Of a stretch of 64,000 nt of DNA, positions 4,506 to 34,431 are shown piece after piece. Each line of letters opens with the position of its first letter. The stretch's first letter is position 1. The notes under the pieces were generated by a model that saw nothing but the letters and a program-made list of their open reading frames with translations, made no database searches and was not told where the DNA came from. A program made the translations under genes and the position numbers. This DNA comes from Ruegeria sp. EL01 (GTDB lineage: Bacteria > Pseudomonadota > Alphaproteobacteria > Rhodobacterales > Rhodobacteraceae), in assembly GCF_900313035.1 (NCBI RefSeq), contig NZ_OMPS01000048.1, forward strand, positions 291,643 through 355,642, in the 5' to 3' direction.

Positions 4506-4519
4506 AAAGCCCTCCTAAG

Positions 4520-5329
4520 TTACGCGCTTTTTGTGCGCCCTTTGAGACCCGAGACGAGACGATCTGTCGTGTTCATCTCGGACCAATCTTGTTTGGTGTT
4601 CGACGGGGTTATTGGTGGCCCCGCTTTTTTCAGAAGTGCCTCGATGCCGCGCAGACCATCTGCGCTGGTAACGCTGTCCATGATGGCGGTGACCTGTTTG
4701 GGTTCGAGGCGTGCGTCCAGCGTGCGCTTGACCGTTGAAAACCGGGAGCTGGCGTCGGGGCCGAGCTTTGCGGTTTCTTCGTCGGCGGTATTCATCGCAT
4801 CCATCACCGAACGCAGCTCACGGTTCGCAAGGATCGAAGCAATATCACCCATCAACGCGGGATCGGCGCCATGTTTCAGCATCGCCGCTTGCAGTGCGGG
4901 AAGATCGGGATCGTCGGCGTCGATCATTGACTTCACATCGAATTCAACGTCGTTGCCGTCTTCATCCTTGGTCTTCATCGTTTCCGGGTCGAAGCCCTCG
5001 GGAAACGCGTGGCCTTCGGGGATTTCGAACGCGTATCCACTGGCCTCTTTCGGCATCGCCTCGGTGCGTTCGTCCGCCTGTGCCTTAAACGACGCAAGTT
5101 CGTCATAGTTGGCCTTGAACCCGTCGGTATCCCATTTGCCATCCTCACCTTTGAAGGTGTCAGGCAGAATGCCGGAATAGTCGATTTCTGTGTCGCCACC
5201 ATCGCCACCATCTCCGCCATCACCAGCATCTGCTGCGGACAGCGAGCGGCGCAGGCCCGGATTTTGACGGGCGTATTCCGCCCATGCGGGATCATAGGGA
5301 TCAATCGGACGCTTTAACTTGTCATTCAC
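4520..5329 (-). CDS. Capsid scaffolding protein
   Basis: This 269-residue protein is very acidic and hydrophilic. Near residues 35-50 it has a low-complexity Gly-Asp run (DAGDGGDGGDGGD). Later come long charged helices, and the C-terminal region is mixed-charge and ends basic (SGLKGRTKSA). This composition and the position between portal and capsid genes fit scaffolding proteins that guide procapsid assembly and then leave. The start is GTG at 5329, overlapping by 4 bases the stop of the small gene upstream. T7 gp9-like function is inferred, not shown. Confidence 0.7.
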   Translation of the reverse strand: MNDKLKRPIDPYDPAWAEYARQNPGLRRSLSAADAGDGGDGGDGGDTEIDYSGILPDTFKGEDGKWDTDGFKANYDELASFKAQADERTEAMPKEASGYAFEIPEGHAFPEGFDPETMKTKDEDGNDVEFDVKSMIDADDPDLPALQAAMLKHGADPALMGDIASILANRELRSVMDAMNTADEETAKLGPDASSRFSTVKRTLDARLEPKQVTAIMDSVTSADGLRGIEALLKKAGPPITPSNTKQDWSEMNTTDRLVSGLKGRTKSA

Positions 5330-5499
5330 TTTCTTCTACCTTTCGATTTCAAATATGAAGCAAGGGAGATCCTGTTCTTTTGCTGGCCTGCGCGCCGAAC
5401 CCTCTCAAGGCGCAGCGTCTCAGCATTGGCGTTCCGAACAGACTTTGGTCCGTGTTTTACGCCTCGCGGCGTCGGTCTACTTGTCTCACCTTTGGGCAT
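5326..5499 (-). CDS. Small basic phage protein (57 aa)
   Basis: A short frame starts at ATG 5499 with an AGGAAAA ribosome-binding site 5-6 bases upstream and ends in a TGA overlapping the scaffold start codon. The product is strongly basic (about a quarter Lys or Arg), beginning MPKGETSRPTPRGVKHGP. Fit to the gap, the start signal and the translational coupling make it a believable gene although it is under 60 codons. Function is unknown; a virion or DNA-binding role is only a guess. Confidence 0.55.
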   Translation of the reverse strand: MPKGETSRPTPRGVKHGPKSVRNANAETLRLERVRRAGQQKNRISLASYLKSKGRRK

Positions 5500-5525
5500 C
5501 GTATTTTCCTGCAGAGAAAGGCTGG

Positions 5526-5825
5526 TCAGCCATGAGATACCAACCTTCTGATTTCGAGTACAAAATTCCGCACCGCGTTCATTTCCCGCAATGCACCGTC
5601 TGACGAACCATTCGGAACGCCAGCGTAAAGGACGGATTTTTCCAGCAATTTCAGAACCCTAAGTCCTTGTTCGGTCGTGAAAGTTTCGATGATGTCGGCA
5701 TGCAATTGCTCGGCACCATCAGGGTTTTCTTCGCGCATCCAGTTCAAATGCGTGGCGAGATACGACTGGACCGGAGCTTCGTCGCGCATATCCCTGAGAA
5801 ACTTGGTCTTCGCGTTATTGCTCAT
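5526..5825 (-). CDS. Phage protein next to portal, unknown function
   Basis: This 99-residue, mostly helical soluble protein begins MSNNAKTKFLRDMRDEAPVQ. It overlaps the end of the portal gene by about 11 bases. No known motif is seen. It lies between portal and scaffold genes in a strict head-gene order, so a head assembly role is likely but unproven. Confidence 0.5.
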   Translation of the reverse strand: MSNNAKTKFLRDMRDEAPVQSYLATHLNWMREENPDGAEQLHADIIETFTTEQGLRVLKLLEKSVLYAGVPNGSSDGALREMNAVRNFVLEIRRLVSHG

Positions 5826-7326
5826 TGGGGGCCTGCTGCGGCTGCATCGCTTGAATCATCTCGGTGATCTCTTCTTTCGACCGGAACTCGACGATCTCGT
5901 CTTTCAGCTTTTCCTTGATGTTCCGGTAGGTTTTGGGCCCGTCGACAAGGATGGCAGCTTGCTCCGGACCTAGACGTTCGTTCACCATTCCAACGATGCT
6001 GTCGGCGGTGGTGACGTCCTGTAGCGCCTGGGAACGTTCGAGAGGTGAGATTGGGCGCGCGATGACGGTTCGGTCATCCAGCAGTGGAAGTTTGACACCA
6101 TCGAGTGACCCACCGGCCTGACGTTCGAGATATTCTACCCGACGCAACAGACCGACACCAAATTCCCGCCATGTCTTCGCAGCTGGTCGCGCCATCCGGC
6201 GAACCTGCTTATTTTCTTGCCCCACATATTGGGAGGCGGACGGCGGTGTTTTGCCCCGCTGCTCGATTTCGCGATAGAAGCCCTCCCGGATCTTCTGTTC
6301 GATGCGTTCCTCTGAAAAGAACCCGTAGTCCAGATTTCCGAAGTCCAGCGGTCGCACATTTTCGGCGCTACCAGGCATAGAGGGATAACCAAGTCCAGGA
6401 TCGATCCCCTCCGACAGATCAAGGATACCGTCATGGGGATAAACAAAGGCGGGATCGAGTGTCCGATCCATACCCTCAAGGTTCATCCGGACCAGCTCAT
6501 CCAGGCCCCGAAGGGTCGGCAACATCCGGCGCCCTGGACCGCGACCCCATGCAGATTTCGCATAGGGATTGTACCGACCAACGATAAGAGGTTGTGACCC
6601 CTCTTCGCCGAGATCTTCATCCATTCCGATGGCCTTGCCATCGACGCGGATCTCCTGCCGCCATTTCGGGTTCTCGACGTCCTCATAATTCCGCCAGAAC
6701 CCCCAGATCACTTTGGCTTGACCACTCTTACCGTTCTTGATTTTCTCGCTAAGAGCCCGCGGGAAATCGGCATCCGGGAAAAGCTGTTTCAAATCCCTGA
6801 GATGATAGGACTGCCGACGGAACCTATCTTCGAGCCCGCGCGGGCCGACTGTCAGAAATAACTCGGGAAGAGGAACAGCCTCACAAACGATTGGTGAAAT
6901 CAGAGATGGCCGATCCATCCACATCGCGATGTTGCCGACAACCGCATCCTGAAACGCGGTAGGCCCCTCGTCATAGTAATTGGACGAACGCAAAGCCTTG
7001 GCCAGCTTTTTTTCGAGCATTCCAAGCTGCTCTTCCGCGGCATCCTTCTGATCTTCATCAACTGCGTTACCGGCCTCAAAAGCCGTCCACGGTGAATTCT
7101 CGGGCGTCATCGTCGAGAACAGTTCACCATAGAATTCTTCGGCTACCGTCGCGGCAGCCTCGGTGAAAATCTCTTCGGGATCATCGGAGTATTTGGTGCG
7201 GTCATCCCATTCCTGTTCCCGCCCGTTGAAACAGAACTTGTAGATCTCGCGGCCGTCTTCCTCGACTTGCTGACGCCGATGGGCGCGGGCCACAGAAAAC
7301 CGCTGCTTGAACTCGTCGTCCGCCAT
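5815..7326 (-). CDS. T7-type head-to-tail connector (portal) protein
   Basis: This 503-residue protein matches the T7-like portal family (Head-tail_con type) in size and layout. It has an N-terminal helical region (FKQRFSVARAHRRQQVEEDG), a wing domain with YNPYAKSAWGRGPGRRMLPTL, then LDELVRMNLEGMDRTLDPAF, and a C-terminal Gln/Pro-rich tail. Podovirus portals of this family form the dodecameric DNA channel and nucleate capsid assembly. It sits between the terminase region and the scaffold/capsid genes. It begins one base from the end of the small gene upstream, consistent with coupled translation. Confidence 0.8.
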   Translation of the reverse strand: MADDEFKQRFSVARAHRRQQVEEDGREIYKFCFNGREQEWDDRTKYSDDPEEIFTEAAATVAEEFYGELFSTMTPENSPWTAFEAGNAVDEDQKDAAEEQLGMLEKKLAKALRSSNYYDEGPTAFQDAVVGNIAMWMDRPSLISPIVCEAVPLPELFLTVGPRGLEDRFRRQSYHLRDLKQLFPDADFPRALSEKIKNGKSGQAKVIWGFWRNYEDVENPKWRQEIRVDGKAIGMDEDLGEEGSQPLIVGRYNPYAKSAWGRGPGRRMLPTLRGLDELVRMNLEGMDRTLDPAFVYPHDGILDLSEGIDPGLGYPSMPGSAENVRPLDFGNLDYGFFSEERIEQKIREGFYREIEQRGKTPPSASQYVGQENKQVRRMARPAAKTWREFGVGLLRRVEYLERQAGGSLDGVKLPLLDDRTVIARPISPLERSQALQDVTTADSIVGMVNERLGPEQAAILVDGPKTYRNIKEKLKDEIVEFRSKEEITEMIQAMQPQQAPNEQ

Positions 7327-7499
7327 TACAAACGGCGTCCGTTGGCGATGGAAACACGGGGCGAACGCAAGTTGCGAAATAGGTTGGTCTGGGTTTGCAG
7401 GCCCTCTTGGGTCGCCCTGATGTTTTCGGTGCGCGCGCGTTCACGCTGCGCTTTCTGCTCAGGGGTTTCCTCTACCTTCTGTGGTTTCGGCCGCTTCAT
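7326..7499 (-). CDS. Small charged phage protein upstream of portal
   Basis: From ATG 7499 this frame encodes 57 residues, highly charged, with a probable helix (EETPEQKAQRERARTENIR) and a basic C-terminus. The internal start is preferred over 7592 because the longer version would bury most of its extra N-terminus inside the overlapping upstream gene. The end touches the portal start. Function is unknown; small proteins in this position occur in T7-like head modules. Confidence 0.5.
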   Translation of the reverse strand: MKRPKPQKVEETPEQKAQRERARTENIRATQEGLQTQTNLFRNLRSPRVSIANGRRL

Positions 7500-7896
7500 T
7501 GAGGATCTCCGTTCCTTCGATGCGGAGAAGATCGCGGAACAGCCCGTCAGGTCGCAATGCACTGGAACGGAGGCGCAGCATGTGTTTGACAAAGTTTACA
7601 CAGGTCATCGGGCCGAGAAACGCAGTTGATGACGCTGGGTGCGCGGGACCAAACTTGACCACCGTGTAGTGGGTGAGAAGGAAATCAAGATAAGCCTGGA
7701 CTTCATCGTAATGATAGATCGAGGCGGCATTTACCCCGTGGCGCTGCAAATCAAGATGCAACCAGGTGTCGTTCGAATATCCGGCCAAGGAAACATGGCA
7801 GAACCGACGGGACCAAAACCGTTTTCCGGGATGAAAGACAACATGCCAGATCAGGCTTTGGTCGAACGGGTACGGGTACGGGTTATTGTCTTGCAC
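7459..7896 (-). CDS. Conserved phage protein with Cys-containing motif
   Basis: This 145-residue protein contains FHPGKRFWSRRFCHVSLAGY near the N-terminus and TCVNFVKHMLRLRS near residue 105. A Cys followed by Val-Asn-Phe-Val-Lys and a preceding conserved His resembles a thiol-hydrolase-like or papain-like fold, but the catalytic pair cannot be confirmed. It overlaps the terminase end by 14 bases and the next small gene by about 40. The family looks familiar from podoviruses of Rhodobacterales; its role is unknown to me. Confidence 0.55.
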   Translation of the reverse strand: MQDNNPYPYPFDQSLIWHVVFHPGKRFWSRRFCHVSLAGYSNDTWLHLDLQRHGVNAASIYHYDEVQAYLDFLLTHYTVVKFGPAHPASSTAFLGPMTCVNFVKHMLRLRSSALRPDGLFRDLLRIEGTEILNEAAETTEGRGNP

Positions 7897-9481
7897 GAGG
7901 GCCTCGTTTTAACGAATACCGTTTGCGCTCGATCCGCTTGGGCTTCGGTTTATCCCCGCTGGGGTTGAGAACAACGAACCCAAGGCCCGCACCCAGACAC
8001 GCATATTGAAGGGCGTCGTGATAATCGGCGAAGGTATTCTTATAGGGTTCGTCGTGATGGGCGTTCTTGCCCTTGATTTTCGCGTAGTGGTAGCCGCTGA
8101 CAAACCCGGATTTCAGCGTGATACACGAGGAATCAACGAGTAAGCCGGGCCCACCATCAACCATCGTATCCAGCGCCGACTGCACCGCGTTCAGCCGCAA
8201 TGAAATCGCGTTGTTGCCGGGGGCTGCCGCCACGCTCATGCCGTTTGAGTTAAAGATCTGGTAGGGTGTGCGGTCGGTGCCCTGCCCCTTGCTGTCACCC
8301 GAGGGATCACCCCAGAACTGAATGCCGGGGCTGTCTTTACCCATCCACTCGGGGAAGTGCTTGAACAGTCGTTTCTTGAAGAGCGGCGCGTAGGTGGTCG
8401 CCGCCTGATTGATCACCCCGTATTCGTGGAGAACATAGACGGCCCCCCGCAGAACCTGGATCACAACCATTGCCGGGTTCCGTGCGAAGTCGAGACCAAC
8501 GATCAGAGGAAGACCAGGGATCGGCTTGATCTTTTCCTTGGCGACATGGATCTCCGGTCTAAAGCTTTCGAACACGGGCTTGCCCGACCGATAGAAGCCG
8601 ACACGGTTCATCACATAGGTGTCGACATAGGATTTGGCTTTACCCTTGATCAGCTCCGAATAGGTCTCGGTCAGCCATTTCGTGTTTTCCGCGCAATCGG
8701 TTGGATCCAGGCCCATTTCCACCCGGTTCTCCGGGGTGTTTTCTTTGTACCCGACGACCTTACGTTCCTTGATCACCTCGATTAGACCCGGTGGTTGCAC
8801 AAAGAATTTCCAGTTATCAGGTCTCGCGTATTCGGCGCGCTGGTCATCGTCAAAATCTTCGGGCAGCGGGACATCGCCCCGCATGTAGGGGATCCAGTGC
8901 CCCTCTGGCGGCGCGTTCAAATCACAGATCACGCCCTTCCATGTGGGTCCACCGTCCAGCTTCGGAGGATAACGCCCTTGCATGGCGCGACCATGGGCGG
9001 CGTCAAAGATGGTTTTGTCCGTGAACTGGGCCTCATTGAACCAGACCCCCGTACATTCCAGCGAAAGAAGCTTGCGGACATCCTCTTCCTGATCCAGCGC
9101 CAAGAAGATGAATTCGGCGTCGACAATTGTGCCGTCTGGTTTATCCCAGCGGATATGATGGTTCGGCGGGTTTGTCATCTTGAGTTCGCCGAACACACCC
9201 TGGGCGACATCTTCGAACCAGTATTTGAAGGTCTTGATCGTCGTTTCTTTGAGATCGTTGTAGGTGTTTCTGACGATGATCCACCGGGTACGTCGGACCC
9301 CTGCTGCGTCCGGGGCTTGTTCCAGTGATATCTTCCACATCTTGTGGCAACATGCCGTCGAGGTTCCCGACCCCACCGGACCCTGGATCACGGACACCGG
9401 AGATCGGTCCCAGAAAAACGATTTGATCACCTTGCCGTCGGGAACGTACTTGAAGGATTTGGGTTTGACCGGCGCGTTCAT
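7883..9481 (-). CDS. Terminase large subunit
   Basis: This 532-residue protein has the two-domain plan of phage packaging motors. The N-terminal ATPase has a P-loop region (VIQGPVGSGTSTACCHK, residues 31-47) and an adenine-region helix. A Walker B-like segment follows (LSLECTGVWFNEAQ). The C-terminal RNase H-fold nuclease shows acidic residues in GLDFARNP, WGDPSGDS and DYHDALQY. The usual P-loop lysine is missing at the expected place. Large terminase translocates DNA into the procapsid and cuts genome ends. It overlaps the downstream gene and is coupled (ATGA) to the one upstream. Confidence 0.85.
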   Translation of the reverse strand: MNAPVKPKSFKYVPDGKVIKSFFWDRSPVSVIQGPVGSGTSTACCHKMWKISLEQAPDAAGVRRTRWIIVRNTYNDLKETTIKTFKYWFEDVAQGVFGELKMTNPPNHHIRWDKPDGTIVDAEFIFLALDQEEDVRKLLSLECTGVWFNEAQFTDKTIFDAAHGRAMQGRYPPKLDGGPTWKGVICDLNAPPEGHWIPYMRGDVPLPEDFDDDQRAEYARPDNWKFFVQPPGLIEVIKERKVVGYKENTPENRVEMGLDPTDCAENTKWLTETYSELIKGKAKSYVDTYVMNRVGFYRSGKPVFESFRPEIHVAKEKIKPIPGLPLIVGLDFARNPAMVVIQVLRGAVYVLHEYGVINQAATTYAPLFKKRLFKHFPEWMGKDSPGIQFWGDPSGDSKGQGTDRTPYQIFNSNGMSVAAAPGNNAISLRLNAVQSALDTMVDGGPGLLVDSSCITLKSGFVSGYHYAKIKGKNAHHDEPYKNTFADYHDALQYACLGAGLGFVVLNPSGDKPKPKRIERKRYSLKRGPRARQ

Positions 9482-15217: not shown

Positions 15218-15777
15218 CAGAACAGCCCCCCTGTTGGTTTCGCCTGAAACCCCCTGACTTGGGTCGCACACGCCCAATCCCAGGTCGCCGCCGCATCTGC
15301 GGCGTCCAGATCCGGCACATCCCAACCCAACAGACGACAACGCGCCTCGATCTCTTCTTTGATCGCCAGTTTGGCTTTGGCTGGTTTAAGGTGCGGGAAA
15401 TCTCGGGAGGTTTTCGCCTTCCCCATGAAGTGACGTCGAACGGTCGCTGGATAGACCGGGATCATATTCACACGTCGGTTTCCTGCACACCCCTGCACGC
15501 ATCCGAAGAGCTTGATTAAGAAGGAACTGGCGTTTTTGCCGCCAATAGCCGCTTCAACTACCAGAAGGTCGGGCTCATGAGACTGGATCAAACCTTGCGT
15601 CATTATCAACGCGTTGTTCAGCCGTTTGCTTTCGAGCTTGAATTTGTCAGCCTGAGACATACCCCCACGAACATAGGGGGTATCGCCAAGACTGATTGAC
15701 CAGCATTTCGGGTTCTCTCCCGCTCGTCCAACTGCAATGCCGGTATTTGTAGCCAGATCCAGAGCAACTATCTGCAT
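15217..15777 (-). CDS. RuvC-like Holliday junction resolvase
   Basis: This 186-residue RNase H-fold protein opens QIVALDLATNTGIAVG, which supplies the first catalytic Asp. It has a Glu in LLVVEAAIGGKNASS and closing acids in VPDLDAADAAATWDWA. These match the RuvC-type D-E-D(D) active site. In phages such resolvases trim branched DNA before packaging or act in recombination. ATG 15777 overlaps the HNH gene stop, and a GTG one codon earlier is possible. It acts in the cytoplasm. Confidence 0.8.
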   Translation of the reverse strand: MQIVALDLATNTGIAVGRAGENPKCWSISLGDTPYVRGGMSQADKFKLESKRLNNALIMTQGLIQSHEPDLLVVEAAIGGKNASSFLIKLFGCVQGCAGNRRVNMIPVYPATVRRHFMGKAKTSRDFPHLKPAKAKLAIKEEIEARCRLLGWDVPDLDAADAAATWDWACATQVRGFQAKPTGGLF

Positions 15778-16283
15778 CACTCGGACCTCGCGAATTGACC
15801 ATGAAGCTGATGAGCAGCCTGTACGTACGCCGCGTGAGCTTCTTCAGGGCTGTCAAACACTCCCAGGTGTTTGCGCTTTCCGCGAACGCAAATTGCGGCT
15901 CGCCAATTCCTCCTCTGGCGACTATAGGAAACCCCTTTAAGGCCAGAGAGGTTATCTGCGTGTGCTCCGGTGTTGCGGGCGTTCTGTGATTTGTCTGCGG
16001 TTCTGAGATTGGATCTACGATTATTCAGGCCGTCACCGTCTCGATGGTCTACTCCCTGAAACGGTTCGCCCATCAGCACACGATGCATAAGTTCCAGTCG
16101 ACAGATTTTCTCTTCCGGAACCCAAACACTCCGGCCGGCATACACTTTTGGCCCGCGAACAATGGCGCACCAGTTCTTACCCTGAACAAGATGAAGATCA
16201 GCCAAATCGACAACAGCCTCGTACCCCCTTGTGAGGGGTACGATCACCTTGTTACCGGAGACTATTACGGAACGGATCTTCAC
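15777..16283 (-). CDS. HNH endonuclease with AP2 DNA-binding domain
   Basis: This protein of about 168 residues has an HNH-type core (LELMHRVLMGEPFQGVDHRD, then GDGLNNRRSNLRTADKSQN) and a C-terminal AP2/ERF-like domain (LSGLKGVSYSRQRRNWRAAI and HLGVFDSPEEAHAAYVQAAH). This fusion is typical of free-standing homing endonucleases in phages. The start is taken as GTG 16283, which overlaps the upstream stop as GTGA; a GTG five codons earlier is also open. It sits cleanly between replication genes without disrupting an obvious neighbour. Confidence 0.8.
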   Translation of the reverse strand: MKIRSVIVSGNKVIVPLTRGYEAVVDLADLHLVQGKNWCAIVRGPKVYAGRSVWVPEEKICRLELMHRVLMGEPFQGVDHRDGDGLNNRRSNLRTADKSQNARNTGAHADNLSGLKGVSYSRQRRNWRAAICVRGKRKHLGVFDSPEEAHAAYVQAAHQLHGQFARSE

Positions 16284-16429
16284 GACGCCGCGTTCCACGG
16301 CTGACGCAGACCCGGAAGACGTGGTTTATGACCCTCATCCTCCGCCCGCTTCTTCATCAGACGGCCGATCTTGGCCTCTGAATCCGGTGACACCTTCCCG
16401 GCGTTGAAGGCTTTGACGATCACCTTCAT
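16280..16429 (-). CDS. Small basic phage protein (49 aa)
   Basis: From ATG 16429, which overlaps the upstream stop as ATGA, this encodes 49 residues beginning MKVIVKAFNAGKVSPDSEAK, with a basic middle. Overlaps at both ends and tight packing support translation. Function is unknown. Confidence 0.5.
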   Translation of the reverse strand: MKVIVKAFNAGKVSPDSEAKIGRLMKKRAEDEGHKPRLPGLRQPWNAAS

Positions 16430-17990: not shown

Positions 17991-18260
17991 TCACCCTGAC
18001 GCCGCCAGAGATCCCTCTTCACATCCCGAGGCAGGTTGAGCCGCCAGAGCGTCGTCAAATCCTTCGACCAACCTTCTGAGGCGGTTGTGACTGAACTCTT
18101 TTCCATTCAGGAACCGCCCCAAAGCAGATGGGCAGTTGAACAACTCTTTGCTCAGTTGGGTTTTCTTCTTGCCTGTTGCTTCCAAAACTTCGGGAAGAGC
18201 TTCGTTTGCTGCCTTCCGAATCACATCCTCAGATGCTGGAACATCGAACTTTCGCCACAT
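17991..18260 (-). CDS. Short phage regulator of the immunity region
   Basis: This 89-residue protein has a helix-turn-helix-like centre (ATGKKKTQLSKELFNCPSAL followed by GRFLNGKEFSHNRLRRLVEG). It is divergent from the XRE gene at 18405. A GAGGA ribosome-binding site lies 7 bases before the ATG. Its promoter is overlaid by operators O1 and O2, so it is itself under phage repressor control. A Cro- or CI-like role is likely; which of the two divergent proteins keeps lysogeny cannot be decided from sequence. Confidence 0.6.
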   Translation of the reverse strand: MWRKFDVPASEDVIRKAANEALPEVLEATGKKKTQLSKELFNCPSALGRFLNGKEFSHNRLRRLVEGFDDALAAQPASGCEEGSLAASG

Positions 18261-18281
18261 AAACAGTCCTCACTTTGGACT

Positions 18282-18310
18282 GTGATAGTTTTTTAACTAT
18301 TACCAATCAA
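18282..18310 (-). promoter_or_regulatory. Promoter of leftward regulator, overlaid by operators
   Basis: On the minus strand TTGATT (18305-18310) and TATCAC (18282-18287) are spaced by 17 bp, a fair sigma-70 promoter. Operator O1 covers the -10 and spacer, and O2 abuts the -35. The expected transcript start near 18275 leaves a short leader with a GAGGA site before the ATG at 18260. Binding at O1 should shut this promoter off. Confidence 0.55.
18285..18300. promoter_or_regulatory. Phage operator O1
   Basis: ATAGTTTTTTAACTAT is a perfect 6+6 inverted repeat with a 4-base spacer (consensus ATAGTT-N4-AACTAT). It is one of five clear copies of the motif, with a sixth weaker match, all in or flanking the immunity region. 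It overlaps the leftward regulator promoter. Confidence 0.75.
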
Positions 18311-18325
18311 TAGTTTTCGAACTAC
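18310..18325. promoter_or_regulatory. Phage operator O2
   Basis: ATAGTTTTCGAACTAC matches the ATAGTT-N4-AACTAT consensus with one change in the last base. Its centre is 25 bp from that of O1. It touches the -35 of the leftward regulator promoter and could bind cooperatively with O1. Confidence 0.75.
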
Positions 18326-18336
18326 TGTTCAGTGCA

Positions 18337-18370
18337 AAATGAACCCCTAGGGCGTCTATTTATTTGATAT
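18337..18370. repeat. Duplicated ACCCCTAGGG element, copy 1
   Basis: The block AAATG-N-ACCCCTAGGG-N-GTC, a short spacer and TTTGATAT is repeated about 520 bp away at 18857-18888, upstream of the LuxR-type gene. The core is a near-palindrome. Copy 1 precedes the XRE regulator gene at 18405. The shared element suggests one protein controls both genes; a LuxR-type receptor site is one possibility. Confidence 0.5.
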
Positions 18371-18379
18371 TGCTCACAA

Positions 18380-18406
18380 ATAGTTTTTCGACTAATTTTC
18401 GACTAT
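18380..18406. promoter_or_regulatory. Phage operator O3 (imperfect, possibly double)
   Basis: ATAGTTTTTCGACTAA (18380-18395) keeps the left half-site and most of the right. An overlapping second match, ending GACTAT at 18406, reaches into the start codon of the XRE gene. Occupation would block transcription or initiation of that gene. Confidence 0.5.
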
Positions 18407-18737
18407 GACCACGCGAACAAAAAAAGTAGATCCCGAAACACTTCACCAGTGGGATGTGATCGAAACCAAGCGCCAACAACTAAACGCGGATAAGAAAGAA
18501 CTCTCGCTTCTCGCGGGACGCCAGGACTCGTATTACTACCAGTCGCACAAGTTTAAGCGACCGATTCCGTTAGAAGCTCTTGTTGCGTGGTCGGAAGCCT
18601 TGAACATCCCAAGCGGAATGTTGTTCCTCGACGGCGAGGAAGATCCGAAGGCTAAGATTATGAACTTGGTCGAGCAGGCCGACAAATCGAAGCTTCCTCA
18701 GGCGGTTCGGATACTAGAAGCTTTTCTAATATCGTAA
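18405..18737 (+). CDS. XRE-type phage regulator (CI/Cro-like)
   Basis: This 110-residue protein has an N-terminal HTH-like region (RQQLNADKKELSLLAGRQDS, then YYYQSHKFKRPIPLEALVAW) and a short C-terminal helix (DKSKLPQAVRILEAFLIS). It lacks the long peptidase or oligomerisation domain of LexA-like repressors. No Shine-Dalgarno sequence precedes the ATG, and operator O3 overlaps it, so the mRNA may be leaderless, as is the lambda cI message from its maintenance promoter. It lies between divergent operators and the luxR-luxI pair. Likely part of the lysis-lysogeny switch. Confidence 0.65.
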   Translation: MTTRTKKVDPETLHQWDVIETKRQQLNADKKELSLLAGRQDSYYYQSHKFKRPIPLEALVAWSEALNIPSGMLFLDGEEDPKAKIMNLVEQADKSKLPQAVRILEAFLIS

Positions 18738-18839
18738 GCGCCTCTACTACCCCATCATCCCCACGTTCATTCTGTATTTTTTCGACCACACTAAATAGCC
18801 GCGTCTTCGAATCCATCCCGCTGCCCTTGTAGTTTAATA

Positions 18840-18855
18840 TCTATTTCATAACTAT
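18840..18855. promoter_or_regulatory. Weak operator-like site O4 before luxR
   Basis: TCTATTTCATAACTAT keeps the right half-site (AACTAT) of the phage operator but a degenerate left half. It lies 42 bp before the LuxR-type start and next to the duplicated ACCCCTAGGG element. On its own it is a weak call; its placement is what makes it notable. Confidence 0.35.
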
Positions 18856-18856
18856 C

Positions 18857-18888
18857 AAATGCACCCCTAGGGGGTCCTAATTTGATAT
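18857..18888. repeat. Duplicated ACCCCTAGGG element, copy 2
   Basis: AAATG-N-ACCCCTAGGGGGTC followed closely by TTTGATAT repeats the element at 18337-18370. Here the core CCCCTAGGGG is a perfect 10-bp palindrome (18864-18873). It lies 10-40 bp upstream of the LuxR-type ATG, a position suited to autoregulation. Confidence 0.5.
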
Positions 18889-18897
18889 CAATGGAAA

Positions 18898-19488
18898 ATG
18901 AATATGACAAGTACATTACAACTTTTGGGAGATGAGCTGACCAAGATTGGCTTCGAACGATATGCAATTGGCACTGGATTTCATACAGGTGAATTGGATT
19001 TCACCTCCACATTTGATGATCAATGGCAAAAATTCTATTTTGTTAATAATTTTCAGAAACTTGACCCGTTACCATATTGCGCATTGGCTGGTGAAACACC
19101 GCTCAGGTGGAGCGATATCCACAAACGAATGAAGAAAAATCCGGTTATGAACGCGGCGCGAGACTTTGGCCTAAAGCAAGGGTTTGGGTTGTCCTGCGGT
19201 GGTTATGTAGTCAGCGCTTACCACGATGGTGAAGTTAGCGATTCAGATCTTAGTTTCGTACAATCATCAATGGCGCGGATCGTGCAAAGATCAGAAGTGG
19301 TTATCGAACCTCTCACGAAATCACAGCAGGGTCTTGTTGACTTGTTGGGTGTGGGGCTGCCAATGGCGCAGATTGCAGAGATCCTTGGTGTCACTCCTGA
19401 CGGACTAAAGACAGCGAAACGACGTTTGTTCAAAAAATACCAAGTCAACTCCGACGCTCAGTTACTTCGGGTACTACGCAATCAATAG
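18898..19488 (+). CDS. LuxR-family quorum-sensing receptor/regulator
   Basis: This 196-residue protein is shorter than typical LuxR proteins (about 235-250). The autoinducer-binding domain keeps the TraR-type signature: W43 and Y47, D56-P57 (QKLDPLPY) and W71. The C-terminal LuxR HTH (residues about 138-195) reads LTKSQQGLVDLLGVGLPMAQ, IAEILGVTPDGLKTAKRRLF, with the usual Glu replaced by Gln. It would bind an acyl-homoserine lactone and then DNA. It is followed after 88 bp by a LuxI-type gene. Base composition is visibly more AT-rich than neighbours. The start ATG has only a weak ribosome-binding site. Confidence 0.88.
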   Translation: MNMTSTLQLLGDELTKIGFERYAIGTGFHTGELDFTSTFDDQWQKFYFVNNFQKLDPLPYCALAGETPLRWSDIHKRMKKNPVMNAARDFGLKQGFGLSCGGYVVSAYHDGEVSDSDLSFVQSSMARIVQRSEVVIEPLTKSQQGLVDLLGVGLPMAQIAEILGVTPDGLKTAKRRLFKKYQVNSDAQLLRVLRNQ

Positions 19489-19545
19489 CCCAGTCAGGCA
19501 CAGCCGAGACCTGAGCATTCCGAACTGATAGCGCGACGTCTACAA

Positions 19546-19569
19546 CTCCTTAGGGACACCCTTAAGGAG
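19546..19569 (+). promoter_or_regulatory. Hairpin/dyad sequestering the luxI ribosome-binding site
   Basis: CTCCTTAGGG (19546-19555) pairs with CCCTTAAGGAG-side bases (19560-19569) around a 4-base loop, with one G-T pair. The AAGGAG ribosome-binding site of the synthase gene is the 3' arm, 7 bases before ATG 19577. Folded, it should block translation. As DNA it is also a 24-bp dyad that could bind a dimeric regulator. Confidence 0.65.
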
Positions 19570-19576
19570 CATTTGC

Positions 19577-20152
19577 ATGCAATCAATAGCTGTGGATTTT
19601 TCAAACATCCATCAGGCAGGAAATGCCTGGAATGAATACTGGCAACTCAGGAAGGATGAGTTTGTCGACAAAAAGGGATGGGAACTTCCCCATACCGATA
19701 CCCTTGAGTTCGATTGGTACGACAGACCAGGTGCACAATGGATTATCGTTATGGAAGACGGCCATTGCGTCGGCGGATCTCGCCTCCTGCGTACCGACGC
19801 ACCCAGCTATGGGCAAGAAAGCTACATGCTTAAGGACGCCCAGGATGGCCTAATTAGTGGAATACCCGTTGAAATGATCCCCGCGGACTTGCCCAGAGAT
19901 CATCGGATATACGAAGCCACCCGGTTCTTTGTTCGGCGCGACCTCAGCCCCAAAAAGGCAATGAAGGTTCAGAGGGAAATTGTCTGCAAGACGGCAACTA
20001 CTGCTCGATCATTGGGTGGTGAGCAGCTTGTGGCGCTCATGCCGTGCAAAATCTATCGGATATTCCGTCGCTTTGGCTTTGAAGTCGTTGAACACGACGT
20101 GATCGCCGATATTGACGGCATTCCTCACACTGTAGGCTGGCTGAAACTTTGA
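19577..20152 (+). CDS. LuxI-family acyl-homoserine-lactone synthase
   Basis: This 191-residue protein carries all eight residues conserved in LuxI enzymes: R25, F29, W35, D46, D49, R69, E113 and R116 (YWQLRKDEF, KKGW, FDWYDRPG, GGSRLL, YEATRFF). The longer loop between R69 and E113, with SYMLKDAQDGLISGIP, is like the LuxI subtype I recall from roseobacters. It should make an N-acyl-homoserine lactone from S-adenosylmethionine and an acyl carrier. It is the partner of the LuxR gene just upstream. Its stop overlaps operator O5, directly before the phage early promoter. Confidence 0.92.
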   Translation: MQSIAVDFSNIHQAGNAWNEYWQLRKDEFVDKKGWELPHTDTLEFDWYDRPGAQWIIVMEDGHCVGGSRLLRTDAPSYGQESYMLKDAQDGLISGIPVEMIPADLPRDHRIYEATRFFVRRDLSPKKAMKVQREIVCKTATTARSLGGEQLVALMPCKIYRIFRRFGFEVVEHDVIADIDGIPHTVGWLKL

Positions 20153-20167
20153 TAGTTTCTCAACTAT
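20152..20167. promoter_or_regulatory. Phage operator O5
   Basis: ATAGTTTCTCAACTAT is a perfect copy of ATAGTT-N4-AACTAT. It begins in the luxI stop codon and lies 32 bp (centre to centre) from O6, upstream of the rightward early operon. Confidence 0.78.
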
Positions 20168-20175
20168 TTTTTCTC

Positions 20176-20202
20176 TTGCCAAAATAGTTTTCAAACTATA
20201 AC
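20176..20202 (+). promoter_or_regulatory. Early operon promoter with operator O6
   Basis: ATAGTTTTCAAACTAT (20184-20199) is a perfect operator copy. It lies between a possible -35 (TTGCCA, 20176-20181) and -10 (TATAAC, 20197-20202) spaced by 15 bp, a little short. The first early gene starts about 80 bp downstream. Repressor binding at O5 and O6 should silence the early genes in the lysogen. Confidence 0.55.
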
Positions 20203-20279
20203 GATGTCTCCATAGCCCAACACCGGGCGCCCCGCCGAAGACGCGAAAGCAGATCGCGGGGCACACACAGGAGGCAACA

Positions 20280-20588
20280 ATGATCACAGCAAACGACATC
20301 ACCAGCCGATGCCCGGTCTCGGAGCGTCCTTTCTACGTGGTCTTTCGCCGTGGCAGCGATCACGAAACGGGCGCACCTTTCTGGTCCGGTGGATCGTTGG
20401 CTAACGACCAATCAGAAGCCCTGTTCAAGGCAAACGAGCCTCCGGTCTATCCTGACGCCGCCTATGATTGCTTCGTTCTTGCGACGACATTTGATGAGGC
20501 GGTAGCCCTCAATCGGTTAGGCCAGCGTTTCACAGACGCCGAGGTTGCGATCTACCGCAGCCCCTATCCAGCAATGGCGGCGGAGTGA
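20280..20588 (+). CDS. First early phage gene, unknown function
   Basis: This 102-residue soluble protein begins MITANDITSRCPVSERPFYV after a GGAGG ribosome-binding site. It contains YDCFVLATTFDEAVALNRLG and has no signal or membrane segment. Being first behind the repressed promoter, it could be an antirepressor, host-takeover or recombination factor. No family match is claimed. Confidence 0.5.
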   Translation: MITANDITSRCPVSERPFYVVFRRGSDHETGAPFWSGGSLANDQSEALFKANEPPVYPDAAYDCFVLATTFDEAVALNRLGQRFTDAEVAIYRSPYPAMAAE

Positions 20589-21196: not shown

Positions 21197-21751
21197 ATGT
21201 CTCAACAGGAATTTCTAAGAGCACCTCAAGTTGCAGAAATACTAGGTATCGGCGTTAGCACTGTTTGGCGGCACGCAAAGCAAGGGAAATTGCCACGATC
21301 CACAAAGATTGGGGGCTCTCGCCGTTGGGCGAAGGCTGATTTACAAAGAGCATATCCAAACCTTTCCTTTCATGTTGCGAGCCAAGAACCAGCACCCACA
21401 GCAAAAATCGTGGTGACGAACCCAGTTGCAGCGGCAGTACTGGATCGTATGGACGCGAATTCAGTCGTGGAGTTTAACCCGGACAGACTGCCGCGAAGTG
21501 GGGTCTATTTCCTAATACTGAATGGTCACGTTGTTTATGTCGGGCAGTCTCGAAACATCGTTCAGCGGATAAACACGCATCGAGCCGATAAAGCCTTTGA
21601 TAAAGTTCAAGTTTTCCCCTGCGAACCCTACGAACTCAATGACTATGAAGGCTTTTTTATTAGGCTTCTGCGCCCGCCATTGAACGGTGATCCCAGCAAA
21701 ACACCAGCAAGCAAGTTGTGGGATCGTTTCTACCACATGGAGAATCTATGA
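21197..21751 (+). CDS. HTH (excisionase-like) and GIY-YIG nuclease fusion
   Basis: This 184-residue protein joins an N-terminal AlpA/excisionase-type HTH (LRAPQVAEILGIGVSTVWRH then AKQGKLPRSTKIGGSRRWAK, residues 6-50) to a C-terminal GIY-YIG-like nuclease domain (SGVYFLILNGHVVYVGQSRN then IVQRINTHRA, residues about 100-165, with a Glu in NDYEGFFIRLL). GIY-YIG domains cut DNA; the HTH would give site choice. It overlaps the downstream exonuclease by 4 bases. It could be a homing-type nuclease, an anti-competitor nuclease or a recombination helper. Confidence 0.75.
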   Translation: MSQQEFLRAPQVAEILGIGVSTVWRHAKQGKLPRSTKIGGSRRWAKADLQRAYPNLSFHVASQEPAPTAKIVVTNPVAAAVLDRMDANSVVEFNPDRLPRSGVYFLILNGHVVYVGQSRNIVQRINTHRADKAFDKVQVFPCEPYELNDYEGFFIRLLRPPLNGDPSKTPASKLWDRFYHMENL

Positions 21752-26137: not shown

Positions 26138-26205
26138 CCCAGCAAACCAAGATCGAATGGGCTGAACACAACGGCTTCCCCGCTGCGCTGATGGGTGACG
26201 CATGA
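26134..26205 (+). pseudogene. Remnant of a DUF5131 (phage Gp37/Gp68) gene
   Basis: The 23-codon frame opens TQQTKIEWAEHN. DUF5131 proteins start with T-K-I-E-W followed by TDATWNPVTGC; here the match stops after the first dozen residues and the frame closes at TGA 26203-26205. It overlaps the stop before it and the Dam start after it. The best explanation is a deletion that fused the start of a DUF5131 gene to the methylase region. Confidence 0.5.
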
Positions 26206-27056
26206 ACCAGCCGACACGCCCGGTCCTAAGATACCATGGCGGCAAATGGCGCTTGGCCCCATGGATCATCTCGCACTTCCCGGAACACCGCTGTTACGTT
26301 GAGCCATTCGGGGGCGGGGCATCAGTGCTGTTGCGAAAAGACCGCTCCTATTCAGAGGTCTACAACGATCTTAGCGCCGATGTGGTCAATCTATTTCGGG
26401 TGCTGCGATCTGACGATGCTCAACGCCTGGTCGAAGCCGTGAAGTTGACGCCGTTTTCTCGCGATGAGTTCGCAGAGACTTATCAGGAAACTGATGATCC
26501 GATCGAGATGGCCCGTCGCCTGGTTGCTAGATCTGCAATGGGCTTCGGTTCTGGTTTGGCAGTCAATCGGCAATCAACGGGGTTCCGTGCCGATAGCAAA
26601 AAATCAGGAACAACACCAGCAATCGATTGGGCTGGCTTCCCGACAGCGCTCGTTCAGGTGGTCGACCGCATGCGGGGCGTGATCATCGAGAACAAACCGG
26701 CTGTTGATGTAATACAAAAACACGATGGGGCTGACACCCTGTTCTATGTTGACCCGCCTTATGTGCACGACACCAGGTCGAGCCAGCGCAGTTCCGAGAC
26801 CCTGCACCATCGCTATGCCCACGAAATGACTGACGACGCTCATTTAGAGCTGCTGTCAATTCTCCAATCAGCAACCGGCCGTGTTCTCATTTCCGGTTAC
26901 GCTCACCCAATCTATGAGGGCGCATTATCCGATTGGCATCGCGTCGAATGTGAAGCACTGGCTGACGGTGCCCGAAAGCGCACTGAGGTTCTGTGGCTAA
27001 ACTTTGACCCAGATCACCGGCCAATTGGCGGCTTGTTCGAAGGCGTCTCATCATGA
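26202..27056 (+). CDS. DNA adenine methyltransferase, Dam/D12 class
   Basis: This 284-residue protein has the class D12 motifs: motif I-like LRYHGGKWRLAPWIISHFPE and EPFGGGASVLL, and the catalytic DPPY (LFYVDPPYVHDTR, near residue 183). It transfers a methyl group from S-adenosylmethionine to N6 of adenine, probably in a short palindrome. In a phage this usually protects the genome from host restriction or tunes gene expression. It is followed by a small basic gene and a cytosine methylase, so the phage carries two modification activities. Confidence 0.9.
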   Translation: MNQPTRPVLRYHGGKWRLAPWIISHFPEHRCYVEPFGGGASVLLRKDRSYSEVYNDLSADVVNLFRVLRSDDAQRLVEAVKLTPFSRDEFAETYQETDDPIEMARRLVARSAMGFGSGLAVNRQSTGFRADSKKSGTTPAIDWAGFPTALVQVVDRMRGVIIENKPAVDVIQKHDGADTLFYVDPPYVHDTRSSQRSSETLHHRYAHEMTDDAHLELLSILQSATGRVLISGYAHPIYEGALSDWHRVECEALADGARKRTEVLWLNFDPDHRPIGGLFEGVSS

Positions 27057-27277
27057 CCCGCCTGTCCTGCTGCATCCCCTTCTGCGCCCGCACTACAGCT
27101 GAGCCGTATGACGAATGGATCTGCGGCAAGCACTGGTCGACCACATCAAAGCGTCTGCGCCGGATCTGGTTCAAGCGGAAACGCCGCTGGAACAAAGGCG
27201 ACCGATCACAGGGACGCCACCTCACCCGCATCTGGGACAAGCTCAAGAACCAAGCCATGGAAGGGGCGATGTACTGA
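27053..27277 (+). CDS. Small basic Cys-rich phage protein
   Basis: This 74-residue protein has an N-terminal CCIPFCARTTAEPYDEWICG with possible zinc ligands and a very basic body (SKRLRRIWFKRKRRWNKGDR). It overlaps the Dam stop by 4 bases and the cytosine methylase start by one base. It could bind nucleic acid. Function is unknown. Confidence 0.55.
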   Translation: MTRLSCCIPFCARTTAEPYDEWICGKHWSTTSKRLRRIWFKRKRRWNKGDRSQGRHLTRIWDKLKNQAMEGAMY

Positions 27278-28818
27278 TGATCGGCATGACCGTCTGCAGC
27301 GGCATAGGGGCACCAGAACGCGCAGCCCCATGGATCGACTGGCGCTACCAGTCCGAGATCGAGCCGTTCCCATGTGCAGTTCTCAAAGAGCACTTCCCCG
27401 ACGCTGTCAACCTCGGGGACATGACTAAATTCAAGGGATGGCCGGATGCAAACATCGATGTTCTCTGCGGAGGAACCCCCTGTCAGTCGTTCTCGATCGC
27501 TGGCCTTCGAAAAGGCCTTGCTGACCCAAGGGGGAACCTCGCCCTCACATATCTTGCCATTGCTGAACGATATCGCCCCCGGTGGCTGGTCTGGGAAAAC
27601 GTCCCCGGCGTTCTATCCGCGCTTTCCCACGAGGCTCCCGATCAAAGTCCACCGGACATCGACCTGGACAGTGACGACGGACCCAGAGACGGGGAAGAGA
27701 TCGTGGTCACTGACGAATACACAAGTGTCGAAAGCCATGCGCTTTGGTGTTTCATGGCCGGGGCGGCAGAACTCAACTATCATGGCGGGTTCATCCATCT
27801 TGACGCTCAATACATCCAAACACCGGGTTTCGCACGCGCTGTCCCTCAGCGACGCGACCGTCTGTTCTTTGTCGGATATCTTGGAGATTGGCGCCGTGCC
27901 GCAGCGGTTCTATTTGACCGCGAAAGCCTGTGCGGGCATCCTCCGCCGCGCCGAGAAGCGGGGAAAAACGTTGCCCCCACAGTTAGCGCACGCCCTTCAG
28001 CAGGTGGTGGACTCGGAACAGACTTTGACTGTGGCGGTGGACTAGTACCTGAGACGGCCCGATCACTACGGGCGCAACCACAGCTCAGCCACAGAGAAGA
28101 TCAGGACACACTGATCACATCTCACGACGCCGCGCCCTGTCTAACCGCAAGAGAACGTAAGGGCGCGCTGCCCGAGGCCGACTTTTCCGCAGTTGTCGCC
28201 CACACCTTGAAAGCTGAAGGTTTCGATGCCAGTGAGGATGGGACGGGCCGCGGGACGCCGATTGTGCCGGTTGCCTTCGATTGCAAGGGCACGGAAGTAC
28301 AGGTCTCAGAGGACGGGTCACACCCACCTTTGCGATCAATGGGACACCACAACAGCCACCAAAGCGCCGGCGGTCATGCTGCAGTGGCTTTCGACACAAC
28401 TCAGGTGACCAGCCCCGGCAATTTCAGCAACCCCAAGCCGGGTGATCCGTGTCACCCGCCGGCGGCGGGAGCGCATCCGCCGGCGGTTGCTTTTGACATG
28501 CGTGGCCGTGAGGGAGGAGCGATGCCTGAAGGCCCGCACGACACCGCCAGTGTCCGCGCTGCCTCAGGAGGGTCAAGTCGTAGTTATGTCGCCGTTCCCT
28601 GGGCTGTCCGTCGCCTGACCCCCACAGAATGTGAGCGCCTAATGGGCTTTCCCGACGATTGGACGGCTATCCCTTGGCGCAACAGACCTGCCGAAAAATG
28701 CCCTGATGGCCCCCGTTACAAGGCCCTCGGGAACTCATGGGCCGTCAATAGCGGTCAGTACATCTTCGAGCGGATCAGAATGGTTGAAGAGTTGTTTGCC
28801 AGTCAGGATTCAGGATGA
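27277..28818 (+). CDS. C5-cytosine DNA methyltransferase
   Basis: ATG 27277 opens a 513-residue enzyme with the C5-MTase motifs in order: SGIGAPERA, the catalytic PCQ (GGTPCQSFSIAG, near residue 65), ENVPG, QRRDRLFFVG and the closing YKALGNSWAVN. It flips and methylates cytosine at C5. A long, low-complexity region before the last motifs (28,100-28,560) has repeated AFD blocks (PVAFDCKG, AVAFDTTQ, AVAFDMRG). The pair with Dam suggests anti-restriction. The start overlaps the upstream stop. Confidence 0.88.
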   Translation: MIGMTVCSGIGAPERAAPWIDWRYQSEIEPFPCAVLKEHFPDAVNLGDMTKFKGWPDANIDVLCGGTPCQSFSIAGLRKGLADPRGNLALTYLAIAERYRPRWLVWENVPGVLSALSHEAPDQSPPDIDLDSDDGPRDGEEIVVTDEYTSVESHALWCFMAGAAELNYHGGFIHLDAQYIQTPGFARAVPQRRDRLFFVGYLGDWRRAAAVLFDRESLCGHPPPRREAGKNVAPTVSARPSAGGGLGTDFDCGGGLVPETARSLRAQPQLSHREDQDTLITSHDAAPCLTARERKGALPEADFSAVVAHTLKAEGFDASEDGTGRGTPIVPVAFDCKGTEVQVSEDGSHPPLRSMGHHNSHQSAGGHAAVAFDTTQVTSPGNFSNPKPGDPCHPPAAGAHPPAVAFDMRGREGGAMPEGPHDTASVRAASGGSSRSYVAVPWAVRRLTPTECERLMGFPDDWTAIPWRNRPAEKCPDGPRYKALGNSWAVNSGQYIFERIRMVEELFASQDSG

Positions 28819-32914: not shown

Positions 32915-33154
32915 ATGTCCCCGCTCTACGTCAAAGAAGAAACCATAGCGAAGATGCTAGGCCACAACGTCACGTGGCTTCGCTCTAACGCTGTGGCTTT
33001 GGAACGGCAGTATGGGTTACCGCCGATTGATCCGGCTGTCGGGATGCGGCACGTTGAAGCTGTTGAGGAATGGGCGCGCGAAAGAAACATCAGAAAATCT
33101 GAGCGTCCAGAGCGGTTGTCGGAAACCAACCAAGAGGACCTAAATGCTTTTTGA
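32915..33154 (+). CDS. Excisionase-like DNA-binding protein
   Basis: This 79-residue protein has a winged-helix/HTH start (SPLYVKEETIAKMLGHNVTW) and a charged tail. Its end overlaps the integrase start. Size and place are typical for the recombination directionality factor that turns integrase toward excision. No high-identity match is claimed. Confidence 0.6.
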   Translation: MSPLYVKEETIAKMLGHNVTWLRSNAVALERQYGLPPIDPAVGMRHVEAVEEWARERNIRKSERPERLSETNQEDLNAF

Positions 33155-34376
33155 TAAATCTCTGTGGGATGATTCAGATCCCACCTATGCGCCGTGCATC
33201 AAGCACCGCAAAGACCGAGGATCATACTTCTGGCGCCCTCCGAAAAAATACCTGGACGCCGGTTATGCGATCAAGACCTACAAGCTGGAAGGCACAGCGG
33301 GCGACGGCCGGGATATGGAACGCGCCCGCCACTGCCGTCTTCTCACCCGTGAAATGCTGGATTGGTTTGAAGGGGAAACAAACGGTCGCAAGCCTGGAAC
33401 ATGGGGCTGGCTAATCGGACGGTACGTCAGCGACGAATACAGTTCGATCCAAGAGGTCCAGCCATCCACCCGCAAGAAGTACAAGGAATGGATGAAGCGG
33501 ATCGAGAACGCGATAGGTGAAGTTCTCATCGATCAAACCGACTTCGAGCGCATGATGGGCTGGCGCAAGAACATGCAGGGCAACGGTCGCTCTGTCGACT
33601 ACATCAGCCGCTGGTTCACGCACTTCATGATTGTTGTATCGCACGGGATCAAAGCGGGTGACCCAGATACGCAGAGCCATTGCGTCAGGATCAAGACGAT
33701 CCGGGGCGAGATGCGCATCCAATCACCGGCAGCCCGTAGCCAGGCTATAACATGGGATCAGGTTGAGACCGTTGTCGCCGAGGCTGACAAGCGCGGCTGG
33801 CCCCAACTTGCCCTGTCCGTTCTGCTTCGCTTCGAGTTCATGCTTCGGGGTGTTGACGTGTATGGGGAATGGGAACCGGCCGAGGGTGGTAGAGGTGGCG
33901 TCCTGTTCGAACACAAAGGCACCGTCAAGCGCTGGGTCAAAGGCCTGACATGGGAGATGATAGCATCGGATGTATCCAGCTTTGAGAAGGTGATCAGCAA
34001 AACCGCGAAGTCCTTGCCAGAGCCCTACACCTTCGATCTGAATGATGTCCCTGATATCCGTCGGCGCTTGCTGTCGATCCCAGAGGCCGAGCGCGTTGGT
34101 CCGGTGATCAAGATGGATGACGGGCTGCCCCCACGTAGCGAGAAACTGACCAAACAGTTCAAGGCAATCGTTCGGGATCATCCCGATCTATCTGACGAGC
34201 TGCGTTTGTCGGACAACCGTTCAGGCGGGATCACCGAAAGCAAGGATCTGGTGGAACCGATGACGCTGCGGGATGCCGCTCAGCACAAGATGGTTTCAAC
34301 CACCGACCGCTATGTCAGGGCAAGATCAGCGGCCGCAAACAAAGTTGTCAGCTTGCGCCAAAAGAACCGTCAATAG
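33144..34376 (+). CDS. int: Tyrosine-type phage integrase
   Basis: This 410-residue protein has a basic N-terminal arm-binding domain, a core-binding domain with EWMKRIENAIGEVLIDQTDF, and a catalytic domain. The catalytic Arg is in LLRFEFMLRGVDVYGEW, the second box is SDNRSGGITES, and the end is AQHKMVSTTDRYVRARS, giving the His/Lys region and the nucleophile Tyr. This R...R-H-Y layout matches the integrase type common in Rhodobacterales prophages. It ends 55 bp before a tRNA-like 3' half, so that site is probably its attachment site. Confidence 0.88.
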   Translation: MLFDKSLWDDSDPTYAPCIKHRKDRGSYFWRPPKKYLDAGYAIKTYKLEGTAGDGRDMERARHCRLLTREMLDWFEGETNGRKPGTWGWLIGRYVSDEYSSIQEVQPSTRKKYKEWMKRIENAIGEVLIDQTDFERMMGWRKNMQGNGRSVDYISRWFTHFMIVVSHGIKAGDPDTQSHCVRIKTIRGEMRIQSPAARSQAITWDQVETVVAEADKRGWPQLALSVLLRFEFMLRGVDVYGEWEPAEGGRGGVLFEHKGTVKRWVKGLTWEMIASDVSSFEKVISKTAKSLPEPYTFDLNDVPDIRRRLLSIPEAERVGPVIKMDDGLPPRSEKLTKQFKAIVRDHPDLSDELRLSDNRSGGITESKDLVEPMTLRDAAQHKMVSTTDRYVRARSAAANKVVSLRQKNRQ

Positions 34377-34431
34377 CGCAATGATGAATACCACGAGCTT
34401 GAAACAAAACTATATTTGGGAAACTGTAACT

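Follow-up and report, generated by a model that had tools for sequence, protein, structure and literature searches.

The 64,000-nucleotide stretch of Ruegeria sp. EL01 DNA analysed here (the window) carries a complete luxR-luxI pair within the immunity region of an integrated prophage, and this pair is probably part of a prophage-encoded quorum-sensing switch that would link lysogeny to cell density. The kind is already known: the prophage is a further member, because the same gene order has been described for two prophages (Phage A and Phage B) of Phaeobacter inhibens T5 (Bunsick et al., bioRxiv, 3 July 2026, PMC13345283). The module consists of a leftward gene, hth, followed by the rightward genes xre, luxR, and luxI (Table 1). 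The block is flanked on one side by a leftward gene that starts at 18260 and on the other by a rightward gene that starts at 20280, from which further rightward genes follow; as had been claimed in the original prediction, luxI begins 88 bp after the stop codon of luxR. The original prediction did not count xre, which is probably the first gene of the unit holding luxR and luxI.

LuxI matches the Pfam family Autoind_synth (PF00765) with 45.5 bits at a cut-off of 24, and this is the sole family above its cut-off; the LuxI proteins of two relatives score 53.5 and 33.9 bits. The eight residues that had been predicted to mark the LuxI family (R25, F29, W35, D46, D49, R69, E113, and R116) are all present and are invariant in all seven aligned phage LuxI proteins. 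A search of PDB sequences with a profile made from three LuxI rows retrieved seven sequences with E-values up to 0.01, all of which are named as acyl-homoserine lactone (AHL), autoinducer, or homoserine-lactone synthases, including LasI and EsaI. The host genome encodes four LuxI proteins above the Pfam cut-off, namely the prophage LuxI and three others on contigs C5, C8, and C30 (L002, L003, and L004).

The receptor LuxR matches Autoind_bind with 51.3 bits (cut-off 23). Residues W43, Y47, D56, and W71 are invariant in all seven phage modules and are spaced like the pocket residues of TraR; Q143, also found in 7/7 phage LuxR proteins, occupies the position of TraR E178. An AlphaFold2 model of LuxR reached a mean predicted local distance difference test score (pLDDT) of 82.9 and a predicted template modelling score of 0.62, and a structure search with this model returned RhlR, QscR, SdiA, and TraR first (best E-value 9.6e-10, probability 1.00). 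The start of luxR may in fact be at 18904, because six homologues begin at the third residue of the window protein. With 194-199 amino acids the phage LuxR proteins are short, and this was ruled out as a phage-specific feature, since 13 of the 21 host LuxR proteins found have only 202-209 amino acids (21 of 40 host loci gave a LuxR match).

The luxR-luxI pair is part of a mobile element, because it is enclosed by an attachment-site repeat for which an empty site exists in another genome. An exact 57-bp repeat of the 3' part of a tRNA-Tyr gene marks both ends; the starts of attL and attR are separated by 45,427 bp, which gives a prophage of about 45.4 kb with luxR-luxI positioned about midway. 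In the same-genus genome G346, both flanks are contiguous, the 57 bp are present once, and a tRNA-Tyr gene is found alongside. The flanks of G346 are 90.2% (left) and 86.0% (right) identical and overlap by exactly 57 bp. Repeat and empty site exclude a location of luxRI outside the excised phage genome and place the pair inside the prophage, as originally predicted.

In a PHROG search, six of ten prophage proteins were matched, as head-tail adaptor, terminase, major head protein, internal virion protein, transglycosylase-type protein, and endolysin, and four, including the probable integrase, remained unmatched. Library matches among the prophage proteins also comprise DnaB, a replication initiator, and a RuvC-like resolvase. 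Among 19 records, the large terminase subunit is 41.0% identical to that of Pelagibacter phage EXVC031P, 38.0% to that of Microcystis phage Mwe-JY08, and 34.0% to that of Burkholderia phage BcepC6B. The nearest phages by terminase are mostly podoviruses, and the carrier is a podovirus-like prophage with a podovirus-type terminase. The sole Peptidase_S24 match of the host genome, a draft assembly of 49 contigs, is on contig C49, and the prophage is on C28, so there is none in the prophage. That no LexA-like self-cleaving repressor was found in it fits a signal-driven switch but does not prove one.

Table 1. Genes, sites, and predicted elements of the prophage; coordinates refer to the window unless another locus is named.
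Feature	Position	Strand	Remarks
attL	L007 8996-9052 (start = window -11004)		exact 57-bp repeat; overlaps 3' part of tRNA-Tyr
Major head protein	3531-4505	-	phrog_212, 7.4e-33
Head-tail adaptor / portal	5815-7326	-	phrog_332, 3.7e-37
Terminase large subunit	7883-9481	-	phrog_2, 7.8e-18
hth	17991-18260	-	89 aa; by position, counterpart of the counter-oriented hth of PMC13345283
Two operator-like palindromes between hth and xre	18285-18325 (18285, 18310)		0 and 1 mismatches
Candidate LuxR-AHL dyad	18341-18356		GAACCCCTAGGGCGTC; upstream of xre; putative binding
Predicted xre promoter	18370-18398	+	TTGCTC-17-TAATTT, by eye; operator-like site 18380 between the hexamers
xre	18405-18737	+	110 aa; presumed lysogeny regulator; heads the rightward unit; present in 7/7 modules
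Predicted luxR promoter	18827-18876	+	TTGTAG-17-AACTAT, by eye; operator-like site 18829
Second candidate dyad	18861-18876		GCACCCCTAGGGGGTC; over the predicted luxR start
luxR	18898-19488	+	LuxR-type receptor; Autoind_bind match; start possibly 18904
Hairpin pairing the luxI Shine-Dalgarno AAGGAG	19546-19569	+	-15.7 kcal/mol, z -2.77
luxI	19577-20152	+	191 aa; LuxI-type AHL synthase by Autoind_synth match
Two operator-like palindromes before early gene 20280	20152-20199 (20152, 20184)		0 mismatches each
Probable integrase	33144-34376	+	adjoins attR; C-terminal HKMVSTTDRYVR
attR	34423-34479		57-bp direct repeat of tRNA-Tyr 3' part

Six further distinct phage records have these four genes at the corresponding place, alike in gene order and orientation: G319 (L052), which is grouped in one genus with the genome of the window, and the five IMG/VR contigs L040 (= L057), L054, L055, L056, and L058. 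The genome locus L059 (Ruegeria lacuscaerulensis HKCCD5857) was counted as the same record as L052 of G319, and IMGVR_UViG_2843420179_000003, whose LuxI is identical to that of the window, was counted together with the window. Identities to the window proteins in G319 are 54% for LuxI, 39% for LuxR, and 30% for the xre product, and in the five IMG/VR contigs 64-68%, 61-62%, and 53%, respectively. Homologues of hth are present in all six related modules (59% identity to L040, 36% to G319). Seven modules can thus be compared, and their LuxI proteins fall into three groups. G319 had been a candidate for a relative that lacks luxRI, with a spacing about 2 kb shorter, and this was ruled out as the entire module is present.

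In the family, 144 of 295 genomes have a LuxI match at 1e-15, the own genome included; the closest other LuxI by score is 38% identical, and the highest identity among the matches listed is 39%. In the genus, 22 of 54 genomes match LuxI at 1e-20, and besides the own genome and G319 (54%) no LuxI exceeds 38% among the matches listed. A profile of xre matches only two of these 54 genomes, the own genome (G000) and G319. Of 394 family genomes sampled, 20 are matched by the profile at an E-value of 0.001 or lower; leaving G000 aside, the strongest match has 9.6e-9 and contains an internal stop. Of 50,697 phage records, one is matched by LuxI (29%; Pseudomonas phage Y5, L088, UNVERIFIED and unannotated there), and LuxR gives two matches with E-values of 0.09 only. 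Scans of viral contigs with the single LuxI and LuxR proteins retrieved only the phage of the window itself, and the single-protein LuxI scan of genome contigs gave no match, though relatives are present there. Apart from the locus of the window itself, the three-row LuxI alignment retrieved five viral loci, the L040 contig among them, and one genome locus, that of G319. The PHROG family phrog_31881 was ruled out as a phage-specific LuxI marker, as it has matches in 183 of the 394 family genomes at an E-value of 1e-25, a threshold which the window LuxI itself misses. The window LuxI may represent a new type of LuxI.

In a tree of 47 LuxI proteins, 7 from phages and 40 from host loci picked among the top matches, all seven phage LuxI proteins form one clade with 100/99 support. 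Because long branches in this part of the tree drew a warning from the program, the neighbours of the clade are unsure.

The genes of the related modules are under strong purifying selection. Between the L040-type modules (L040, L056, and L058) and those of L054/L055, the ratio of nonsynonymous to synonymous divergence (dN/dS) is 0.043-0.047 for luxI (dS 0.89-0.98) and 0.036-0.045 for luxR (dS 0.76-0.93); for xre it is 0.016-0.018 (dS 0.22-0.26) in the comparisons with L054. Synonymous sites are for the most part saturated in pairs that include the window or G319. Over 3462-6397, a stretch that runs from the 5' part of hth to past luxI, L057 and L056 have 98.3% identity, and they share no BLASTN piece of more than 150 bp over 2948-3461 or 6398-9196; the YqaJ-type nucleases beyond their modules are 69% and 30% identical to that of the window. 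The module is thus common, as a block, to phages with unlike flanks.

Two kinds of repeated elements are found around these genes. Operator-like sites of the form ATAGTT-N4-AACTAT with up to two mismatches are located at 18285, 18310, 18380, 18829, 20152, and 20184, which gives six sites in 18261-20300 compared to a mean of 0.08 in shuffles of the same stretch. By eye, similar sites occur at matching places in the L040-type records, and G319 has a TGGTTT-type version. A seventh copy of the pattern within the 64 kb (34412-34427, two mismatches) lies against attR, perhaps by chance.

The second element is a dyad, CCCCTAGGG. With both strands of the 64 kb considered, it is confined to 18344, before xre, and 18864/18865, before luxR; the looser GNACCCNNANGGGNNC with one mismatch has one additional occurrence elsewhere in the 64 kb. 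A counterpart lies 64 bp before xre in six of the seven records and 93 bp in G319, and 37-42 bp before luxR in all seven. The predicted xre promoter has the same spacing in the L040-type records, and as the predicted transcription start of xre is near its ATG, the first dyad would lie near -56. LuxR is the putative ligand of both dyads, and the position of the second one suggests feedback on luxRI. As a general lux box of host systems the dyad is unsupported, being found at one of the 40 host loci; at this locus (L033), a perfect palindrome AACCCTAGGGTT precedes the host luxR at 2784-2795, and in the tree the LuxI of this locus falls beside the phage clade.

Hairpins over the luxI Shine-Dalgarno sequence also fold in other phage modules with differing stem sequences, and their shuffle z-scores range from -2.8 to -1.0. 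The mean unpaired probability at the Shine-Dalgarno sequence is 0.15-0.24 for the seven phage luxI genes, 0.26-0.70 for 14 other genes of the window, and 0.05-0.54 for 18 host luxI genes. Several host luxI genes are thus equally closed, so that the hairpin is unsupported as a phage-specific trait and may be a wider luxI trait.

From these elements, a lysogeny switch can be proposed. In a lysogen, the xre promoter would be on and xre, luxR, and luxI would be expressed, luxRI perhaps also from the internal promoter. The product of LuxI would be an AHL which accumulates with the number of lysogens, and LuxR together with the lactone would activate the xre promoter by binding to the dyad that precedes it. 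The XRE protein would occupy the ATAGTT-N4-AACTAT operators that flank the block and repress both early promoters, the leftward one of hth and the rightward one of 20280. Lysogeny would be held where lysogens are common, and the early genes would be freed when activation by LuxR is lost or when Hth rises. In this scheme, the assignment of proteins to binding elements is putative, and the sign of regulation is borrowed from the two experimentally studied prophages that share this gene order (PMC13345283). The earlier suggestion of a signal that reports the abundance of the prophage is in line with the results of the preprint for those two.

The proposal of such a switch is supported by the profile matches of LuxI and LuxR in Pfam and PDB together with the LuxR model, by the invariance of the eight LuxI residues together with the low dN/dS values, by the prophage ends and the empty site together with the recurrence of all four genes in six other records, by the number of operator-like sites, by the lack of a Peptidase_S24 match in the prophage, and by the control of lysogeny reported for the same gene order in P. 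inhibens T5 (PMC13345283). Several points weigh against it. The GerE match of the window LuxR reaches 20.8 bits and is below the cut-off of 23.5, which the LuxR proteins of two scanned relatives exceed with 26.3 and 39.0, and over the full chain the LuxR model has a template modelling score of only 0.40-0.55 to known receptors. Neither hth nor xre has a match in Pfam, PHROG, or NCBIfam, so that both names rest on position. The AlphaFold2 model of the xre product is poor (pLDDT 62.7), and its best Foldseek E-value is 0.41, with XRE-type DNA-binding proteins in the top rows. The rarity of operators and dyads is overstated, because the patterns were read from the region before they were counted. 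A consensus promoter scan lists neither of the promoters found by eye before xre and luxR, and at host LuxR/LuxI loci the dyad occurs only at L033. The role of XRE in this prophage cannot be assumed, because XRE acts differently in the two modules described in PMC13345283.

A more elaborate form of the switch, in which the two dyads balance each other, is doubtful when taken as a whole. LuxR-AHL would activate xre via 18341-18356 and repress luxR-luxI via 18861-18876, which would keep the signal output per lysogen steady, so that the AHL outside the cells would count lysogens; the RNA hairpin over the luxI Shine-Dalgarno sequence would be a further brake. The LuxI types with their differing operators (ATAGTT-type in the window and the L040-type records, TGGTTT-type in G319) would then be distinct groups, in signalling as well as in immunity, of a single podovirus-like lineage.

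Other explanations do not assign luxRI to the maintenance of lysogeny. The rexAB genes of phage lambda are expressed together with the repressor, and luxRI, which like rexAB has a presumed repressor gene on one side and the right operators on the other, could likewise be cargo for lysogenic conversion that alters host traits or excludes other phages and has no part in the phage's own switch. The three further host LuxI proteins would be possible targets of the phage signal. Such a role is unlikely, as the dyad precedes xre as well as luxR in all seven records, the block moves along with hth and xre, and control of the lysogeny promoter has been reported for the same gene order (PMC13345283). 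It is very unlikely that LuxR with AHL drives induction at high density, in the manner of the vibriophage VP882 receptor, which according to the introduction of PMC13345283 acts with a host signal. The sequence itself does not show the sign of regulation, which leaves room for a lysis trigger, but in both tested prophages of this gene order the signal serves lysogeny (PMC13345283), and luxRI is on the strand of xre, not on that of the leftward early genes. Finally, LuxI might make another N-acyl product or be decaying. There are weak matches to the FeeM and GNAT families below cut-off, and the best-scoring non-phage LuxI is just 38% identical; only Autoind_synth is above its cut-off, however, and the eight invariant residues and the dN/dS of 0.043-0.047 make the loss of AHL synthesis very unlikely. 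The lysogeny switch linked to cell density is thus preferred as the probable function of the module.

In P. inhibens T5, the AHLs of the two prophages have been identified, and both luxI and luxR are required to activate the lysogeny promoter (PMC13345283). Inhibition of either circuit induces its own prophage, so that the modules promote lysogeny, and xre is described as an activator in one prophage and a mild repressor in the other. The EL01 module resembles these modules in the counter-oriented hth, the rightward xre-luxR-luxI unit inside a prophage, the lack of a detectable CI/LexA-type repressor, and the occurrence of the module in phages with unlike flanks. In contrast to the Mu-like and myovirus-like phages of P. 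inhibens, a podovirus-type terminase is found here; this comparison follows the description in the preprint. A term search of the main text of PMC13345283 returned no mention of a lux box.

The claim of the original prediction that few or no phages carry both signal maker and receptor did not hold. According to the preprint, whose first screen drew on complete RefSeq genomes, luxI is present in 53 of 93 Roseobacter prophages, with ten LuxI types and exchange of modules (PMC13345283), and one uncharacterised Myoviridae record with a LuxI-LuxR pair had been reported in 2019 (PMC6456758) and 2021 (PMC7790227). Of the overall prediction, the place of the pair in a prophage and in its immunity region stands, and the claimed rarity does not. 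As in EL01, both genes are carried by the phage of the Myoviridae record, but by its description luxI is immediately upstream of the receptor gene there, whereas it follows luxR here (PMC6456758). Host-type pairs of the same bacterial family share the order of luxR before luxI and a short LuxR. Unlike these, the phage LuxI proteins form one clade, and no xre profile match is found beside host pairs. Like the arbitrium system of Bacillus phages, as described in PMC13345283, the EL01 module would use a phage-made signal which reports lysogen density and favours lysogeny. Arbitrium has a peptide signal and a different receptor, in contrast to the LuxR and LuxI of the switch proposed here, and the two are not of the same family.

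The protein encoded next to attR is a probable integrase by its position and by its C-terminal motif, which resembles that of a tyrosine recombinase. No library names this protein: it has no PHROG match at 1e-4, none in PDB sequences, and no meaningful Pfam match, and it is 23.6-27.7% identical to three hypothetical phage proteins. Among the leftward early genes, a homing-endonuclease-like gene with HNH_3 and AP2 domains is located at 15777-16298. On the other side of the module, the 184-amino-acid protein encoded at 21197-21751 has an AlpA/HTH_17-type DNA-binding part fused to a GIY-YIG nuclease part. Two genes at 26202-28818 in the rightward early region resemble, by their motifs, adenine and cytosine methyltransferases of the Dam and Dcm types, respectively.

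The EL01 prophage adds a podovirus-type carrier, integrated at tRNA-Tyr, to the prophages with a complete AHL circuit in the immunity region. Two viral contigs, which look metagenomic by their IMG numbers, are further additions to the carriers of such circuits. New here are the exact prophage ends, the seven comparable modules, and a map of predicted cis-elements. The repeated dyads and operators provide a specific and testable wiring, and in a host with four LuxI proteins, signal cross-talk between prophage and host can be tested within one strain.

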